Origin: Apostichopus japonicus
Taxonomy: Eukaryota; Echinodermata; Holothuroidea; Aspidochirotida; Stichopodidae
Reading direction: 5' to 3'
DNA: 64,000 bases
Assembly: GCF_037975245.1 (NCBI RefSeq)
Contig: NC_092571.1
Coordinates: 3,615,001-3,679,000, forward strand
Position numbers and translations under genes: made by a program
The notes under the pieces: generated by a model
What the model was told of the DNA's origin: nothing
The model's input: only the letters and a program-made list of their open reading frames with translations
The model's database searches: none
Part shown: piece by piece, positions 11,039-60,361 of the stretch
Position numbering within the stretch: the first letter of the stretch is position 1
Layout: each line of letters starts with the position of its first letter

Positions 11039-11059
11039 TATGGCAAGCCAATTTCTCAA

Positions 11060-11660
11060 TAAATCGAAAAAAACATGGATTATCGGTCAAGAAACCATGT
11101 TTATCGACCAATAAACCATGTTTTTCGAGCAAAAAACCATGTGTATCGACCGATAAACATGGATTTTTGGTTGATAAACACTGTTTATCTGCGAGAAACC
11201 ATGTTTATTGCTTGAAAAACATGGATTATTGCTGATAAACATGTTTTTTTCGGCGATAAACATGGTTTTTGAGTCGAAAAACAAGGTTTATCGGCCACAA
11301 ACTGTGTTTTCAAGCAATAAACATGGTTTATCTGTGACAATCCATGTTTATCTGCAATAATTCATGTTTATCTGCAATAATCCATGTTTTTCAAGAGATA
11401 AACATGGTTTTACGAGCGATAAACATGGTTTATCGCCGATAAACCATTTTTATCTGTCAAAAAACATGGTTTATCGTCGATAAACATGGTTTATTGCCGA
11501 TAAACCATGTTTATCGTCGATAAAACCATGTTAAAAACCAAGTTTATCGGCGATAAACATGGATTTTCGAGAGATAAACTTGGATTATCGATAAAAAACT
11601 TGGAATATCTAATGAAAATCTTTGTTTATCGTTCGATAAACCATTTTACTCAGAAAAAAT
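11060..11660. repeat. Array of short palindromic repeats (CCATGTTTATCG / CGATAAACATGG)
   Basis: About 25 roughly 20-bp half-units alternate in orientation, so adjacent units can form hairpins. A smaller array continues at 11985-12130 on the far side of the nested segment. Spacing is nearly regular but units differ by substitutions, so this is neither a clean satellite nor a CRISPR array. Confidence 0.85.
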
Positions 11661-11725
11661 ATGTTCATTCATACTTAGTAAAGATTCCTAAATCCTATTG
11701 GTCCATTCAGGTCAGCTGACCGTGG

Positions 11726-11977
11726 TTAATCCTGTGAGTAACGCACGGTAAAATTACGGGGCATCACTTGAATAAATCTTTGGTTATATGTAACCAAAAA
11801 TGTTTTGTTTTATGATTTTTTCCCCACACAAATGGTAGTGTATGAATGAACGGGGCTAATCAACGGTCTAGCGTGCGTTACTCACAGGATTAATGCACGA
11901 TCCGGGGATAATGCAAGCGATGCACGAGGGCGGAGCCCGAGTGCATCCAGCGATAGCATTATTGATTAACCCCTTAT
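11726..11977. mobile_element. Nested hairpin-forming segment
   Basis: TTAATCCTGTGAGTAACGCA (from 11726) and its exact complement at 11873-11893 form a 21-bp perfect inverted repeat. A second structure at about 11850-11975 has ends GGGGCTAATCAA and TTGATTAACCCC and a GC-rich inner stem (GATGCACGAGGGC / GCCCGAGTGCATC). This looks like a small MITE inserted in the foldback element. Its target duplication is not resolved. Confidence 0.5.
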
Positions 11978-12154
11978 TTATCTGCCCATAATTATGGTTT
12001 TTCGGTGACAAATCATGTTTATTGGTCAATAAACATGGTTTTTCTGTCGATAAACATAGTTTTCGAGTGATAAACATGGTTTATCGTTCGACAAACATTG
12101 TTTTTCGACCGAAAAGCCATGTTTTTCGATTTATTGAGCATTTGGCTTGCCATA

Positions 12155-36800: not shown

Positions 36801-39800
36801 GTTGCCACCCATCAGATTATGGAAAACTACACTCAACATATAAGTCTCAGCTTGTCTTGCAAATCAAACTCCGTGTATTTCAATGCAATGCAAAACGTAT
36901 AAAAACTATTTTTTATAACAGTTTTGTAATATCAGTCCACGTTATTTTGAAATTGCTTGACAAAGCCAAAAGAGAAAAAATTGCATATTGGAATAGACTG
37001 CTACGCAGTATAGGTATTCCGTTTATTATAGGTGTTGTGATGATGTGTATTTAATGTAGCATAGTAAAATGTGATAATCTTCGTTTGTGATTAACAAAGT
37101 TAAACTAGATATATTAAACCATTACGTTTTTTTTCTGTCAAAAAGGCCAAAGCATATGTTATTTCAGATGCTCGCTTTGTCAAATATTTCACATCAACAG
37201 ACCAAGTCGAATTATATTCAGTAACCCGAGAAATCCCAATTTGTTGACAATTACGAAGCAAAAAGTCTCTAAAGATGCCATTCGGGCAGAATTCTTGATA
37301 TATATAGTGTGGAACTGTGGATAAAAATCAGCAACATAGGTTACATATAAATTGTCTTGAGACGCGAACTTGAAAATGCTTTTGTAGTTGCAGTATGGAG
37401 ATATCTTTAGACCGTAATATTAAGAAATAAACAAGTCACAACTAAACTAGGATTAAAGTTATTTAACCATCAGTTTTCTGTATGAGGCAATATTTTTTCT
37501 TTTAATGAAAGTCAATGGCTCGGAAGGAAACGATGTAATTCGTTAATCAATATCATAAGTTTAAACTTAAAGATTTTATTCCTTTTAAAAATATAAATAA
37601 GTTATCAACACACACATAATACATGTAAGAGCTTATTGTACTCATGACACAGTAAATGAATAAGATACACGTTTACAGCTCCAGTAAGGTCAAAGTATTA
37701 GTAGTACTCTGACGAGTTAGCAAGTATCACCTAAGTGACAGTCATTACACCTTCATGGTTGACTGTGGAATAATTAGCGACGTAAGCTAAGGTCAGAGTA
37801 TCAATTGACAAGAGCAGACCATATGTGAATATATGGTCAACAGACATCATTAATACCAACTAGGAAGTCCACATATTCATTTCAATTTCGTTGTAAACTA
37901 CGCAATTTCGAAATGGAACACTATTGTCCATATTCTCTTTGAAGAGTCCAGCAGGCCAGACACGATTGTTATTCCGGCATCGTGATGTACTATAACAAGT
38001 TGAACTCTGATGGTGATGTTTCAACAACAGGTTATTTCGTATGTAACATTCTTTTCCAGTAAATATTCTTCAATGTGATCGTCATCAACATAATATAAAC
38101 CTTAGTGACCGTAATTATTGCTTTCATCTTTAACTCGAAGAACCCAGAAAGTGACTGAACATAACGATGTTAAATTATAAAGTGGTGACATCTTACCAAT
38201 TGACAAATACAGAGACAATAAAAAGTCATGACATTTCTATTTTTGATTTCAACACGTACTTTGAACAACTGCAATATGTAACGAGGTTACCAAATGCAAA
38301 TGGTCGCTCATCAGTTTCAAACTGTGCGCTAAGTCTCTGAAAGTGTAAATATCTTGTACCTGTGGAGCATCTGTAGGACAGGAGAGAGGGGTGAAGTAAT
38401 ATACAAGAAATGTTAATTGATAATATTGTATTATTTTGTTATATGTACTGACATCATTAATACTTATTTTTGTAGAGCATGAGCTTCAATTGGAAATCTA
38501 AACATATGTGTAGAGAAGGGCAGGGGACAGAGCCATCTACCCCTTCCAGCGAGTGGGACATATTATCGTCTAACGAACTCCATTTGAGGGAATCGATTAA
38601 ATAGGCAGTAAATGTTGTGATTTTGGCTGATTTTCAAGGTCGAGGCAAACATGTCTGAACTTATACCAATAAAATTAATAATAAAATTAGGTAAGTGGAT
38701 AGACGTAGGAAGCGGAACGAGGGGATTGGTGTGTTTATTGTCATTCTCCGTGTCTAAGATGTGATGAAGTTTGTCCCTCAACACCCGTTATAGGTTAACA
38801 GCTGTCTGGACGTTTAGTCCATAGACATCGATGATGTTGCTCAGATTACTTATTATACATCTGGCCAAACTATCTTGCGTGTCACAACTAAAACATAAGG
38901 AAGAACATTTCTAGAACACATCACCATTGAAGGATTATTTTTAGATTAAACATGCATCAATGTGAAAGCTACTTCCTGCATATTCATCAACTTAGTTGCC
39001 CCCAAAATATGTTACTTGATGTATAATAATTTACCTGATAAGGTTTTGGCGATGATATTGAAACCATTATATGGTTGATCAGAAAGGGTTGCCTTGTAGT
39101 ACCTAAACATTTCTCTGCCTAGTAATTCACATACCAGATGTTCATCTTCCGTAATAAATTTAGGGAGACTCGGCATGGAATCAGCTTCCATTTGAGGTAC
39201 AATTCCTTGCATTTGAACTAATTCAAGGACAAAAGATTCTACAAGTTTAAGCGACACAGTTCATTGATTAATGCATAATGTGATCAACATTTAAAAGGCC
39301 TATCTTGAGTGTGATGGTCTGCTGTCCATTTGCGTGGTTTCTTGGTCGCCCCTTATAGTGGTGGTATATTAAAGAAACGACTAAAATCATCCAATTTGCT
39401 GACATAATTTGAAGCTGATGTTGGTTTACATAGTATGGAAGGTCAAAAGTCTAAAGTAAAATGTAATAACTTAAAAATTATGTAATATGTGAACGAATGT
39501 GCTGCTTGTTCGGGGTGATTTCATAATATCATTATAATGCGTGTTTTCTATAGCGCTTTTCAAATATATGATGTTTGTTCCTGGTCAGTTGTGAATATAA
39601 CATCACTTCTCAAACCTGTTCGTTTTGTAGAATTCACACCAACAATAGATTACCGTGCATCGAGTCATAAAACACAGCATATGTAGGAACCTCTGCAAAA
39701 GTGTCTGAAATTAATGACAGGCTCCTACAGAAAGGGTACATATAATAAACGCCATCAAACAACAGACAAGCTTTTACAGAGATGGTACATATACTTAACG

Positions 39801-42800
39801 CCATCAAACAACAGACAGGCTCCTACAGTGATGGTACATATACTAAACGTCATCAAACAACATACAGGCTTCTACAGTGATGGTACATATACTAAACGTC
39901 ATCAAACAACAGACTGGCTCCTACAGTGATGGTGCATATAATAAACGCCATCAAACAACAGACAGGCTCCTACAGTGATGGTACATATACTAAACGCCAT
40001 CAAACAACAGACAGGCTTTTACAATGATGGTACATATACTAGGCGCAATCAAACAACAGGCCGGCTTCTACAGTGATGGCACATATAACAAACGCCATTA
40101 AACAACATACAGGATCTTGCAGTGATGGTACATATAACAAACGCCATCAAACAACAGACAGGCATCTACAGTGATGGTACATATACTAAGCACAATCAAA
40201 CAACAGACAAGCATCTACAGTGATGGTACATATACTTAACGCCATCAAACAACAGACAGGCATCTACAGTGATGATACATATAATAAACGCCATCAAACA
40301 ACAGACAGGCTCCTAGAGTGATGGTACATATACTTAACGCCATCAAACAACATACAGGCTCCTACAGTGATGGTACATATACTTAACGCCATCAAAGAAC
40401 AGACATGCTCCTACAGTGATGGTTCCTATACTAAACGCCATCACATAACAGACAGGCATCTACAGTGATGGTACATATACTTAACGCCATCAGACAACAG
40501 ACAGGCATCTACAGTGATGGTACATATAATAAACGCCATCAAACAACACACAGGTTCCTGCAATGATGGTACATATACTAAACGTCATCAAACAACAGAG
40601 AGGCTTACACAGTGATGGTACATATAATAAACGCCATCAAACATCAGACAGGCTCCTACAGTGATGGTACATCCAATAAACGACATCAAAAAAGATCATA
40701 AGCATAGGCGTAGGTGCCTCATTTGATTGGGGGGGGGGGGGGCTGTAACGACTTGCCCGAAAAATATAACCAGAATTTTTCGCGCGCTCCGCGCGCAATC
40801 CACATGTTACTGTGCGTATCATATAGGCATTCATCGATTATTACACCACATGCCAATAACATAATATCATTTTTCGTGTTATTACCCTTCCATATTGGTT
40901 AGAATTATTGGGGAAGTTGTTGCAACAATAATGATATTAACAATAATATAAGTTTAACCGTTAAAAAACACAGTGCAAATTTATCTTCTTCTTCTTGGTC
41001 AGGGGGAGAGAATGGTCTGTAGGGGCGCTTTCGACACTATCCACCACAGGTTGGCGCGGAGCGTACAGAAAATTTTTGCGTAAAGATACTCCCTAGATCG
41101 CCGGAAATGACCCTTTCCAGGCCTTGCTAATTTGCAGATAAACGAAGAATAAATAGGTGTCATCGCCATTTGTCAGAAAATTGCACCAACAAAATGTGAC
41201 AAATGTCAATAGGTTTTTGAGAGCGCAATAAACAAGTCAATAATCGCGAATAAGTAAAGAGTGGTAAAAAGCTGAAAGGGCGCCAGCAGTCCATTTGAGT
41301 CCGTCAGGGGGGAACGCCCCCCTCTAACTGTATGGACGCTCCGCCACTCAGCATATTGCCCAAATTTTCACTAAAAAAATTGAAAAACACAGTGCAAATT
41401 ATTCTTTTTCCAGTAGGTGCCCGAAAAATTCTCAGCATCTTGCCCGAATTTTTCACCAAAAAAATGGTTGGGGGGGCTACAGCCACACCCCCCTCCTCCT
41501 ATACTATGGACATAAGTAACACATATTGTAAATTATTAGATGTATAGTGTTCTATCTTATAAATAGACTAACAAACAAAAGAACATAAAAAACTCATAAT
41601 GTAAGTCATTAGATGTATATTGTTCTATCCTAAAACGTGAAAATCACTAAGATCATGGTTCGGTCCAAGTATTGAAACGGAATTGTATATTAACAACGGA
41701 GCACAATATGACATTTTAACGGACATGCTTTTAACACGGAAGTGGTTACAGACTAACGTCAAACGCCTTCTCCAATAAAATGATATACTATAAAATCGTA
41801 AATATGTTGAATGTTAACGAAGCTTGTGCGTGTAACTGGTTAGTATATAACATCAAATATATATATTATTAAATAAGTATTCGTTTTGCAACTTTCGTCT
41901 CAATTATAGATGATCGTGCATCGAATAATAAATCACAAATTGCAATAATTAGTTAATGTACACAAGGTTTGTATGGAGAATATATTGGTTGAAATACTCA
42001 CTGACTCTCAACGTCAAAACATAACTCTGCAACAAAAATTAAGAGAAATTTGTGGCCAGTAATCTCTCTAATCTATAATATTTAATGCATCTCTTGATCG
42101 GTTTCTTGGAGGTAAATATACATTACGACTTCAGTATAATGTGATATTTTCACGTAACACATACAAATAAGAAGCGTTAATGTTTGAACTTACTAATTTT
42201 ATGACAATAGTAACCAAAGATGCATGCGAACGACATCGTGAAGGAAGCTGCACATGTTACTATGATTAAGAGCAACATCGATACACCGGATATATTTCGG
42301 TCTTTGTCCTGCCGCATGGGAACTGTCGGATGATTACTATCATCCTTCTCGGATGTATTTGTCAGGAAGCTACTGGTAGTACTATTGTGCTCAGTGTAAT
42401 TTGTTTCGCAGTTCTTGCCACCTGTGGAGGAAGTACCAACACCAAGTGCAATATCACTCTAAAGTCATAACATATATTTGACAATATTGCTGGTTCAAAT
42501 CTAAAAACCAATTCACCGACTGGTTTTTGTTAAAGTGTCAGTGGACCAGTGATAATGTTTCGATTTGTTTCCAACATAACACATATATAACAGTACAGTT
42601 TCAAGTTAACCAGTGGTCTACTTTGAGGGATAGTGCAAGTTAGTCGTACTTCTTGGTTGTTTTCAACGTATATCGTGTCATCATTGATGGAATTTGCTTG
42701 AATGAGGACTGCAGGAGTCACTGGCGATACAACAGAACATACTTAAAAGAACACTCTTTGACGTGTGAAATGAAGCACTAATATGTCAATTTTTTACTAG

Positions 42801-47884: not shown

Positions 47885-50255
47885 AAGGACCACAATATAT
47901 GAAGATGATGTTACAACACACGATGATATACTTACTTCACATGATGATGTACTTTCATATGAAAATGATGCTACAACACACGATGATATACTAACTTCAC
48001 ATGATGTTGTACTACTTTCATATGAAAATGATGCTACAACACACGATGATATACTAACTTCACATGATGATGTACTACTTTCATATCAAGATGATGCTAC
48101 AACACACGATGATATACTAACTTCACATGATGATGTACTACTTTCATATGAAGATGATGCTACAACACACGATGATATACTAACTTCACATGATGATGTA
48201 CTACTTTCATATGAAGATGATGCTACAACACACGATGATATACTAACTTCACATGATGATGTACTACTTTCATATGAAGATGATGTACAACACACAATGA
48301 TATACTAACTTCACACGATAATGTACTACTTTCATATGAAAATGATGTTACAACACACAATGATATACTAACTTCACATGATGATTTACTACTTTCATAT
48401 TAAGATGATGTACAATAAACGTTGATATACTAACTTCACATGATAATGTACCACTTTCATATGAAAATGATGTTACAACACACGATGATATACTAACTTC
48501 ACATGATAATGTACTACTTTCATATGAAAATGATGTTGCAACACACGATGATATACTAACTTCACATGATAATGTACTACTTTCATATCAAGATGATGCT
48601 ACAACACACGATGATATACTAACTTCACATGATGATGTACTACTTTCATATCAAGATGATGTACAACACATGATGATATACTAACTTCACATGATAATGT
48701 ACTACTTTCATATGAAAATGATGTTGCAACACACGATGATATACTAACTTCACATGATAATGTACCACTTTCATATGAAGATGATGTTACAACACACGAT
48801 GATATACTAACTTCACATGATGATGTACTACTTTCATATGAAGATGATGTACAAAACACGATGATATACTAACTTCACATGATAATGTACTACTTTCATA
48901 TGAAGATGATGTTACAACACACGTTGATATACTAACTTCACATGATGATGTACTACTTTCATATGAAGATGATGTACAACACACGGTGATATACTAACTT
49001 CACATGATAATGTACTACCTTCATATGAAGATGATGCTACAACACACGATGATATACTAACTTCACATGATGATGTACTACTTTCATATCAAGATGATGT
49101 ACAACACACGATGATATACTAACTTCACATGATGATGTACTACTTTCATATGAAAATGATGTTGCAACACACGATGATATACTAACTTCACATGATAATG
49201 TACTACTTTCATATGAAGATGATGTTACAACACACGATGATATACTAACTTCACATGATGATGTACTACTTTCATATCAAGATGATGTACAACACACGAT
49301 GATATACTAACTTCACATGATAATGTACTACTTTCATATGAAGATGATGTACAACACACGTTGATATACTAACTTCACATGATGATGTACTACTTTCATA
49401 TGAAGATGATGTACAACACACGGTGATATACTAACTTCACATGATAATGTACTACTTTCATATCAAGATGATGTTACAACACACGATGATATACTAACTT
49501 CATATGATGATGTACTACTTTCATATGAAGATGATGTTACAACACACGATGATATACTAACTTCACATGATGATGTACTACTTTCATAGGAAGATGATGT
49601 TACAACACACGATGATATACTAACTTCACATGATGATATGCTACTTTCATATGAAGATGATGTAACAACACACGATGATATACTAACTTCACATGATGAT
49701 GTACCACTTTCATATGAAGATGATGTTACAACACACGATGATATACTTACTTCACATGATGATGTACCACTTTCACATGAAGATGATGTTACAACACACG
49801 ATGATATACTAACTTCACATGATGATATGCTACTTTCATATGAAGATGATGTAACAACACACGATGATATACTAACTTCACATGATGATGTACCACTTTC
49901 ATATGAAGATGATGTTACAACACACGATGATATACTAACTTCACATGATAATGTACTACCTTCATATGAAGATGATGTTACAACACACGATGATATACTT
50001 ACTTCACATGATGATGTACCACTTTCACATGAAGATGATGTTACAACACACGATGATATACTAACTTCACATGATGATATGCTACTTTCATATGAAGATG
50101 ATGTAACAACACACGATGATATACTAACTTCACATGATGATGTACCACTTTCATATGAAGATGATGTTACAACACACGATGATATACTAACTTCACATGA
50201 TGATGTACCACTTTCATATGAAGATGATGTTACAACACACGATGATATACTAAGT
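47885..50255. repeat. 63-bp minisatellite, about 37 copies, open on both strands
   Basis: The unit is GATGATGTTACAACACACGA, TGATATACTAACTTCACATG, ATGATGTACTACTTTCATAT, GAA. The left two thirds contains many 60-bp units (GTACAACACAC), which break the frame. From about 49640 units are 63 bp and keep a frame: plus strand DDVTTHDDILTSHDDVPLSY (21-residue period) and minus strand SSSYESGTSSCEVSISSCVV. Variants (ATATGCTACTTTCATAT, GTACCACTTTCATAT, GTACCACTTTCACAT) recur in order, so there is a higher-order period of three or four units. Nothing suggests it is a gene. Confidence 0.93.
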
Positions 50256-57711: not shown

Positions 57712-60361
57712 CTAAAACAGACAATAAAACAGTATCATAATCAATTTGATCCATGAATAGAGTTCGAAGTATTTCTCTATTCATTTAAGAAGTAATATTT
57801 AGGTTGATAAAAATTGTTATAGTGAATATGAATGTGACGAAATGTAGAAAGTGTAAATCCTGACATATAGTAATTCAAAAGCGAATCTTAGCCATAATGT
57901 AGGCCTATATGTTTGAACACGAATGTTCAACGTGTTTCTCTTCGTTATAAACTTCTGTAAAGTAGATGGGTCGATATTGGAAGGGTTAATGGTGGGCTGG
58001 ATAGTGTACTCCCATCGTATCCGTCATTAACCATCCCGACTTCTTGATTTTAAATCACTGAGAATCACATATTACTTTGAGTTTCGTAGATCAGTGCACT
58101 CTCAGTCCAACTCAAGAGTCCTACTCCGGACTATCAGCTCTAAATGATCAATACTGCTATTTCACTCCAGAACCATAACATAGGATCACATATAATAGCT
58201 GAGGTGTTCAGTTTCACTGAGTATAGGCGTGGTCAAGGCATGATAACCCTTTTAGCTTGAATAGTTAATAGAGTCCTGGTGAATTTCGTCTACATTTATC
58301 TCTATTCCCTTCAATACTATTTTTTGAGGTACATGTATTGTACCAGGCTACGATATTGTTATGAATTACAGTGTTTTACGTGTTTCATGTAGCCTACAGG
58401 AAAATACTTGAATAAATACTTTACTATTCATATCCATTAATCAATTCAACATTGCCATCAATTTCATTTTCATTGCTCAAATATTTAATAATCTGAGATT
58501 TACGGTATTTTTTTTTATACAAAACTGCACAATATTTATGTAAAATTACTAATCAAAGCCTTCAGTTTCGATTTAAGGAACAACTCGCTCCTCCATCTTC
58601 ATAGATGGTAGTGGTAGTTCAGTCCTGCACTAAATGCAATCTTGCAGGGAAATTGACAGAACTGTTTGCACAGGGTAAGTACCCAAGATGGTTACTCTTT
58701 CTTAGTATAGTCTTTGGCGATCTCTTTACCCTTTCTATGGCGCGATCGCACGTAACTGGAGCAAATATTCTGTAAACGTATATGGTAGGCCGCATGGGAA
58801 ATAATTGCTGAGTTATGTCCGACATAATTGCTGAATTATGTCCGACATAAATCCGATTTATGTACCACGTAAATACGAATTATGTCGGACATAAATCGAC
58901 CAATCATGTGAGCGCATCTCGATGATTATTTATGTGGTACATTAATCGTATTTATGTACCGCATAAATCCGAATTATGTACCGCATAAATCGTATATGTA
59001 CACATAAATCTGGTTTCAGGAGTCTTCGAAGCTCGCATAGCGTTATGCTCTTCGAAGATTAACAAACCGGTTCAAAGCATTGCGAACAAACATCGGATTA
59101 TGCGGATTGGGAGTCAACATTTGTCAATAACCTATATCGTTCGCTGCTCGACGAAAATCACGCAGATGTTTTACTTTGTCTATCATGCGTGCCATTGCGT
59201 TGTACTTTGCTTTATACAGCAGAAATAACTGCGCTGCTTTCACGCCACAGCAAGATGGATTACATTAGCTCAGAGCATGATAACAGCTTCAAAATTCGCT
59301 AATGTGATTGGTCTATTTGATGCCGGTATTAATTATATTTAATGCCGGTATTAATTATATTTAATGCCGGTATTAATTATATATAATGCCGGTATTAATT
59401 ATATGTAATGCCGGTATTAATTCTATTTAATGCCAGTATTAATTATATTGAATACCATCATATGTAGCTACATGGTGATTGGCTGTGAATTATTGCCGGT
59501 ATTAAATAGAATTATTACCGGTAATATTTTTAGTTCATACGGACATTAAATCAGCAATTATTTCCCATATGGCCTACCATAAACGTAACATTTATTTGCC
59601 TTAGCAATAAATTACAGATTGGAGCGGAAAGTTATAACACTGCAGTCTGACAGGTTAAGTAATGAATAAGAATAATATAAATGGAATGAAAAGAAACGAG
59701 GCCGCTTGTTTTGGGGAAGAGTTTTGTCGCGATGTTTGACATTGCAGCGGACTATCCTTTATTGAAACTACCTATTGAACAGTGGCGTGTACAAGGGATT
59801 GCGGGTGGGGGGGGGGTCACTTAATGATACAAGGGTTAATTCTTCTCTTTCTTCATGTTATGTATAAACCACTACAATAATGTGTTTTTGAAGTTTTCAT
59901 CATCGGTATTATGCTTGGATTAGTTCCGAGTTCAAGTCACTCCAAGATCAATGTATGTCGTCCAGGAACAGAGTTTGTTGACAATTGACAATTCATAATC
60001 ATGGACGTTAATTAATGAATCTAAGAGACTGACTTTGGCCAGCCTGCGGCCTTGATAAGCCAATGAGGCTTCTTCGCGAGTTCCTGCTTGCAGGAGGATC
60101 TAAAATTACCTTCCTACATACATACATACATACACCCATACACACGTACTTACACTCATACACTCACACATACATAAATATCAAGTAACTAATTACCTCG
60201 AAAGATTCCCGGATCGCCTCCTTCGATGCAATACTCCAGCTGTGGACCGTTGTCGGACATGAACACGATAAGTGTGTTGTGTTCGATTCCTTGGGCGCGA
60301 ACTTCATCAACGATACTCTGTACTTCCCAGCTGAGTTCATTTATACCATCCCCATAAGCAC
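57129..60361 (-). CDS. Arylsulfatase, C-terminal two exons (partial, frameshifted)
   Basis: Exon 60361-60197 (phase 1 in and out) encodes AYGDGINELSWEVQSIVDEV and NTLIVFMSDNGPQLEY, the conserved DNG region of sulfatases. The last exon, 57711-57129, encodes GGKTNSFEGGYRVPLISYWP, DLLPTFIDLAGG, SSRDFIMFYN and FAVRFGNYKVHF. The join reads FRGGKTNSFEGG, as in arylsulfatase A. The enzyme family removes sulfate esters from glycans or lipids in lysosomes or outside the cell. The N-terminal exons with the CxPxR formylglycine site are not found in this window. A one-base slip in an A6 run (57334-57339) takes the frame to an early stop at about 57314; the following frame continues with NISLECVVYHDPPLIFELL to a stop at 57129. 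This is either a sequence error or a broken gene. Confidence 0.8.
58781..59581. mobile_element. Foldback element, copy 2 (801 bp)
   Basis: Starts TATGGTAGGCCGCATGGGAA and ends, inverted, TATGGTAGGCCATATGGGAA, with about 30 bp of terminal inverted repeat (to AATAATTGCTGA). It is flanked by a perfect 6-bp duplication AACGTA (58775-58780, 59582-59587). The interior has palindromic units ATTATGTCCGACATAA (58810-58990) and a 23-bp tandem ATGCCGGTATTAATTATATT (59318-59460). No frame is present. It lies in the sulfatase intron. Confidence 0.85.
59318..59460 (+). repeat. 23-bp tandem repeat ATGCCGGTATTAATTATATT
   Basis: Six near-perfect units inside the foldback element; ATTGCCGGTATTAAAT at 59493 is a further diverged copy. 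Confidence 0.93.
59925..60115 (+). mobile_element. tRNA-derived SINE, 5'-truncated copy
   Basis: Starts within the B box (GAGTTCAAGTCACTCC), then ATGTCGTCCAG, AAGAGACTGACTTTGGCCAG, CTTGATAAGCCAATGAGG, and ends CTTGCAGGAGGATCTAAAAT. It matches 7207-7405. An ATAC-rich microsatellite (CATACATACATACATAC) follows the tail. Confidence 0.75.
60197..60361 (-). CDS. Arylsulfatase exon with the SDNGP motif
   Basis: Acceptor TTCTATTTAAG, donor CGAG|GTAATT, 165 nt, phase 1 to 1. It encodes YGDGINELSWEV, NTLIVFMSDNGP and EGGDPGIFR. Confidence 0.85.

Follow-up and report, generated by a model that had tools for sequence, protein, structure and literature searches.

We asked what kind of sequence occupies positions 58781-59581 of the window (the whole stretch of 64,000 nucleotides of Apostichopus japonicus DNA that was analysed), and why copies with nearly the same tips carry different palindromic arrays. 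The sequence is an 801-bp transposon copy, non-coding, with a perfect 6-bp duplication, AACGTA, on both flanks. Its tips are TATGG..CCATA, it is one of many copies, and this genome also holds transposase-bearing relatives with the same tip, target-site duplication (TSD) length and array layout. We regard it with good confidence as an IS3EU-kind DNA transposon, non-autonomous and of the MITE/foldback type, moved and read as proposed below.

The window element and its copies

The original prediction of an element with a perfect AACGTA duplication at this place was exact in its coordinates, and both of the palindromic or tandem cores that it named are present, as ATTATGTCCGACATAA units at about 58810-59000 in the left array and as a 22-bp tandem unit with TGCCGGTATTAATTATA at 59314-59453 in the right array. 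The features of this element and of a second copy in the window are:

58775-58780, no strand: left target-site duplication AACGTA, which fits the NACGTN preference
58781-58811, plus strand: left terminal inverted repeat, 31 bp, TATGGTAGGCC-GCA-TGGGAAATAATTGCTGA
58812-59010, plus strand: left subterminal array (module LA), 22-bp units
59011-59313, plus strand: middle module (MID), about 300 bp
59314-59550, plus strand: right subterminal array (module RA)
59551-59581, minus strand: right terminal inverted repeat, 31 bp, TATGGTAGGCC-ATA-TGGGAAATAATTGCTGA read on the minus strand
59582-59587, no strand: right target-site duplication AACGTA
11039-12154, plus strand: second member of the tip family (lineage B), with TATGGCAAGCC tips and a AACCATGTTTATCG-unit array
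11653-11978, no strand: unrelated repeat of about 300 bp nested in the lineage-B copy (query 615-940)

The exact tip TATGGTAGGCC stands at 58781-58791 (+) and 59571-59581 (-); the element starts with TATGGTAGGCCGCATGGGAAATAATTGCTGA, and the inverted sequence is found at the other end with ATA in place of GCA. The outer arms are 90% complementary over 40 nt, and the two arrays differ, the inverted repeat between the ends being limited to about 40 nt. Each array is itself a foldback around a short spacer (two inverted pairs, I1 and I2): LA units have arms TTATGT..ACATAA, with the second half inverted about a CCAAT-holding spacer, and RA consists of 6.4 copies of a 22-bp unit containing ATGCCGGTATTAATT (93% matches), followed by a second half in inverted orientation. 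Among open frames that touch the element, the longest are one of 79 aa within MID and one of 86 aa that crosses the left border of MID. With its 801 bp of non-coding sequence, inverted ends, TSD and many copies (229 related ends), the element has the properties by which MITEs are recognised. Four exact tips within the window form two inverted pairs, and with one mismatch allowed there are seven tip matches against a mean of 2.2.

The window locus is duplicated about 210 kb away, and because identity is 99.7% across 2801 bp of both loci, the window copy and its duplicate represent one insertion. A query made of its joined flanks gave 11 matches, of which four are flanks of the two filled copies and one lies off the junction; the other six, all in C22, align at 77-86% straight across the target junction, which lies after base 200 of the query (alignments run from base 180 or 185 to 233-270). 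These six places look like unoccupied relatives of the target, with a left reach of only 16-21 bases, 6-mer included.

Kinship with the copy at 11039-12154 had also been proposed, and the same tip motif with a different array is indeed found there; the duplication, taken to be of the same length, is imperfect (TACGAT/TACGAC). The repeat nested in that copy, whose coordinates are approximate, has copies elsewhere that are 91-98% identical, and judged by eye it holds an inverted TTAATCCTGTGAGTAACGCACG-like sequence. The window also contains two large tandem arrays, at 47897-50253 (63-bp unit × 37.6, 94% matches) and at 39716-40690 (49-bp unit × 19.9, 86% matches).

Similarity of the ends exceeds chance by a wide margin, as had been expected: the tip motif TATGGYARGCC behind ACGTN (ACGTNTATGGYARGCC) occurs at 433 places in the genome against two for the reversed pattern, and the longer tip TATGGYARGCCNNNTGGGAAATAATTG, with up to two mismatches, occurs 229 times against none in the reversed control. 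Among 300 listed ends of the 433, there are 74 convergent pairs less than 5 kb apart, compared with 0.2 expected at random, and 49 of these 74 are 400-594 bp long. We examined TSDs in elements from 39 loci not chosen by flank (L001-L020, L049-L066, L068). Twenty-one of these loci yielded 22 elements, not all independent (L001 duplicates the window copy, and L004 and L005 share flanks), with a perfect TSD in 14, a TSD with one mismatch in four and none in four. The left flank has central CG in 22/22 and ACGT in 11/22 of them. In the remaining 18 loci the fetched stretch held no partner tip at up to two mismatches. We disregarded one cross-pair in L017 as well as L067, which came from a flank-selected list, and 20 further loci chosen for ACGT flanks did not enter the count.

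At three junctions among the listed ends (C3:270320, C6:3486128 and C15:3601583) and in locus L017, two elements share one 6-mer, as would result from insertion of one element into the duplicated target of another that was there first; L035 and L045 show such neighbours too. At C1:1251161-1313380 lie eight lineage-A ends, all pointing the same way and mostly about 7.65 kb apart, which looks like a tandem array of a unit containing the lineage-A end. Two single ends with tip and ACGT flank (L079 and L086), whose starts are unlike those of any lineage, were set aside as probably due to chance; the reversed-pattern control leads one to expect two such ends.

A transposase-bearing sister lineage

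We searched the genome with the profile of Pfam family rva_4, which we take to be the IS3EU transposase, and obtained 143 matches, compared with matches in 0/14 control genomes (a weak control, the named controls being prokaryotes). One of the six rva_4 loci fetched (L093) begins inside a 21-bp palindromic array, and its neighbourhood and two further copies carry the tip TATGGCAAGCCGTTTTACTTTTTATTCG. Three transposase loci sit in elements starting with TATGGCAAGCCGTTTTAC. The C16 and C12 copies align from precisely this tip onward, and the C16 and C17 copies from four bases before it, where the flanks agree.

The end of this sister lineage (lineage G) occurs 245 times against 0 in the control, and the 100 of these ends that were listed form 36 pairs. 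Two pairs span 0.44-0.47 kb, 22 span 2.4-3.3 kb, two 5.4-6.8 kb, five 8.9-9.5 kb and one 16.2 kb; the four largest (20.4-26.0 kb; one each on C16 and C17, two on C12) all enclose rva_4 matches. Identical 6-bp TSDs were found in 12/12 sister pairs examined, which were chosen among ends without mismatch. These TSDs read CGNNCG in 6/12 and have at least three of those four bases in 12/12, with central CG in 0/12. The target rules thus differ between the two lineages: central CG in all 22 window-type copies, and CGNNCG-like sites without central CG in all 12 sister copies.

The C16 element (C16:29793053-29813839, 20,787 bp, loci L097, L093, L098 and L103) has palindromic arrays with a period of about 21 bp at both ends, about 500-600 bp per end. 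Its frames include an HTH_7 domain, two parts of rva_4 and, on the opposite strand, a HECT ubiquitin-ligase-like ORF of 364 aa. The only NCBIfam match of the transposase core is IS3 transposase, and it is weak (17.8 bits, cut-off 160); comparison of the core with solved structures gave no useful match. A 3.1-kb sister copy (L104) retains arrays of about 500 bp at both ends.

No ends were found for four of the six rva_4 loci fetched. One rva_4 locus, L091 (C17:3916300-3922300), has different ends (ATGTGGCACTT) with a 6-bp duplication, ACAGTA, in one copy, and may represent another end type for the rva_4 transposase family. Among the loci examined, no rva_4 or other transposase with the window lineage's own ends (TAGGCC...GGGAAATAATTGCTGA) was found. 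A search with the IS481 model scored 68 places, none of which passed the cut-off; their long reading frames, together with inspection by eye, point mainly to retrotransposon integrases. Twelve loci from this search and its follow-up contained no tip pair with a duplication, L028 (TATATA) and L072 being the only, and weak, candidates for terminal repeats with a TSD. Several other candidates were rejected. L025, a 184-aa fragment (Pfam rve), had itself as its sole strong match. L020, 8.2 kb between two lineage-A ends whose flanks do not match, contains a retrotransposon-like ORF that we read as BEL/Pao. Six long lineage-B copies (2.0-3.4 kb) showed no transposase by eye, and L073-L075, which are such copies, have reverse-transcriptase-like frames. 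L009 and L013 carry an additional 1.3-1.5 kb, part of it shared repeat DNA, and no transposase was recognised there.

Constant tips and changing arrays

The ends fall into six lineages:

Lineage A (the window lineage): TAGGCC..GGGAAATAATTGCTGA
Lineage B: CAAGCCAATTGCTCAATAAATCG
Lineage C: CAAGCCATGTGGGACAAACAC
Lineage D: CAAGCCACATGTGCAATAATTCG
Lineage G: CAAGCCGTTTTACTTTTTATTCG
Lineage H (a second enzyme-bearing lineage; one locus, left end only; no right end found in the 6.4 kb fetched): AAAGCCATTTTAACATTTAATCGG

With one representative per lineage, the tips agree at 9-11 of 11 positions and the next 25 bases at only 4-17 of 25, which bears out the expectation that ends would be conserved and cores variable across copies. 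An array stands just inside the tip in every lineage, and 21-22 bp is the best period in eight of the nine arrays tested (in lineage D, 21 came second to 40). Palindromes were defined by arms of 7, one mismatch and a spacer of up to 4, and one copy per lineage was measured. They exceeded the highest value from 100 dinucleotide shuffles in both arrays of A, in both of G and in those of B and D; in the arrays of C (two pieces) and H they did not. Lineages B and D have common arms (ATAAAC..GTTTAT) and differing centres.

The length of RA varies mostly in 22-bp steps. In lineage A, 41 of 49 RA segments (26 loci, L001 left out) have inner edges that begin in residue classes 1-4 modulo 22, where chance gives 4/22, and 27/33 do so without full-length segments. 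Such 22-bp steps are what one would see if palindromic units expanded by slippage or hairpins in replication or repair and had no role, and the lack of palindrome enrichment in the C and H arrays points the same way. We nevertheless consider neutral expansion rather unlikely, given that arrays with a period near 21-22 bp lie next to the tip in seven types of end (left and right A, B, C, D, G and, at one end only, H) and that B and D keep their arms while the centres vary.

The arrays might alternatively act as brakes, subterminal repeats titrating transposase and damping transposition by analogy with piggyBat, whose activity is described as rising once a subterminal inhibitory sequence is removed. 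The long arrays (about 500-600 bp per end) of the one enzyme-bearing element measured at both ends would suit such a role. The 3.1-kb L104, however, keeps its arrays, so loss of arrays is not the rule among the commoner small copies, and we think a braking function unlikely.

The lineage-A copies fetched have three main architectures: LA-MID-RA (the window copy, L001-L009 and L013), RA-...-MID-RA (e.g., L010-L012, L014, L016, L018 and L019) and LA-...-LA (L015 and the second element of L017). Long inverted ends with internal tandem repeats, a foldback trait, are present in the RA-MID-RA and LA-LA copies. L010, L011, L012 and L014 have a common 150-bp segment between the left RA and MID. In L001-L008, MID begins at about the same base as in these four copies but follows LA immediately; in L009 and L013 long inserts separate LA from MID. 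This arrangement indicates that one whole end array was exchanged with the tip kept, through one breakpoint (L001-L008) that was then inherited; either direction of exchange is possible. L067 has LA followed by inverted RA, and the first element of L017 has an RA body with one LA-type tip, mixed arrangements which imply that the tip region itself also recombines.

The suggestion that the family keeps its ends and swaps in new arrays therefore holds for one exchange of the left array in one sublineage; repeated swapping was not borne out, a single breakpoint being seen. Array capture, in which tips are kept and unrelated palindromic or tandem arrays are taken up from elsewhere in the genome, gains something from arrays that vary by lineage next to a tip with 9-11 of its 11 positions identical, and from lineage A, whose left end consists of LA in some copies and of X plus inverted RA in others, both meeting the same MID at about one base position. 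We judge it improbable. Only one replacement event is visible, unit length is common across lineages, and the shared arms and different centres of B and D suggest drift; arrays of 20-22-bp units also stand just inside both ends of the 20-kb transposase-bearing relative, which speaks against uptake of outside arrays and makes the arrays look ancestral and lineage specific, that is, inherited subterminal DNA rather than captured cores. Array-bearing places all had the tip except one (C4:3275127), a weak test of whether arrays occur elsewhere, as only 40 whole-element candidates were scored.

Polinton and Dada are superfamilies with 6-bp duplications, but it is very improbable that another such superfamily moves the window lineage and that its tip resembles rva_4 elements by convergence. 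In favor of this stand the different target rules (central CG against CGNNCG) and the failure to find an enzyme-bearing copy with the end of the window lineage; against it, the 11-bp tip is identical at 9-11 positions, TSD length and array architecture are the same, and weak likeness extends into bases 12-36.

Proposed mechanism and known systems

The reading that we favor is that of an IS3EU-kind element moved in trans. An integrase-type (rva_4, IS3-like) transposase of a related element would pair the two tips, cut the copy out and join it with a 6-bp stagger to a palindromic CpG-containing target, NACGTN for the window lineage. Units of 20-22 bp correspond to about two turns of DNA and would face one side of the helix. 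The subterminal arrays are most likely lineage-specific docking sites for the helix-turn-helix domain of the transposase, and the constant tip would be read by its catalytic part. Reading of the array by the helix-turn-helix part would explain why arrays and targets differ by lineage; since target preference differs, the transposase of the known 20-kb elements may not be the partner of the window lineage. The different ends of L091 and the C and H arrays without excess palindromes also count against this reading, as does the lack of a transposase-bearing copy with the window lineage's ends among the loci examined. Arrays would change by gain and loss of units; in one instance an entire end array was replaced while the tip remained, probably through recombination within the shared tip. 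Ends therefore look constant and cores look swapped.

IS3EU is, in our judgement, a little-studied superfamily. We suggest, tentatively, that recognition in this IS3EU group rests on three modules that can be separated: the tip, which is frozen, the subterminal array and the target site. It is likewise conceivable, though doubtful, that the lineages changed their array (left and right A, B, C, D, G and H) as well as their target rule (NACGTN in the small lineages, CGNNCG in the 20-kb transposase-bearing one), possibly via the DNA-binding domain of the transposase. If the modules are separable, one could predict from its array which enzyme moves a given non-autonomous copy, and hybrids such as the LA-MID-RA copy in the window would be natural tests of cross-recognition. 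The window element is not categorically new, constant tips and changing arrays being common to its enzyme-bearing relatives as well. Its value lies in the coexistence, within one genome, of large enzyme-bearing elements, several small lineages that have the tip in common and each their own array, with a spacing of about two helical turns, and two palindromic CpG-containing target rules, which makes testable what reads what in an integrase-type transposase. The tip together with a 6-bp duplication containing CG is also a practical handle for annotating such repeats.

Among the closest known systems is the IS3EU superfamily (with GingerRoot), whose elements are described as having TA..TA termini and usually a 6-bp TSD (Kojima 2023, PMC10045372), and those of rust fungi as having TAYGG..CCRTA ends, terminal inverted repeats over 30 bp, a 6-bp TSD and extra genes (Kojima 2025, PMC12730594). 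The sea cucumber elements agree in the TATGG..CCATA termini of the window copy and related families, in the 6-bp duplication of the window copy and the sister lineage, and in an integrase-type transposase, here in the sister lineage with the same tip motif. As described, the TET-bearing fungal IS3EU families have an alpha-kinase gene on the strand opposite the transposase (PMC12730594); the extra gene in that position here is the HECT-like ORF. Within the collection of papers searched, none has both IS3EU and HECT. Our elements differ from IS3EU as described in these accounts by lineage-specific subterminal arrays of 20-22-bp units, two target rules, a size of 20-26 kb and the HECT-like ORF.

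Two further comparisons, again as far as the cited accounts describe the systems, concern architecture and target. Tetris has 8-10-bp duplications and repeats of about 220 bp, and the internal repeats of Galileo hold extra transposase-binding sites (PMC4079207). The window family resembles both in being non-autonomous and modular, with tandem repeats in inverted ends (in its RA-MID-RA and LA-LA copies), rearranged forms and an autonomous partner that is hard to find; unlike Tetris, it has a 6-bp duplication and units of 20-22 bp. A bacterial IS481-family element inserts at NCTAGN and duplicates a palindromic 6-mer (PMC2516522). Duplication of a palindromic 6-mer on insertion is common to that element and ours; ours is a eukaryotic, non-coding copy whose target core resembles ACGT, or CGNNCG in the case of the sister lineage.
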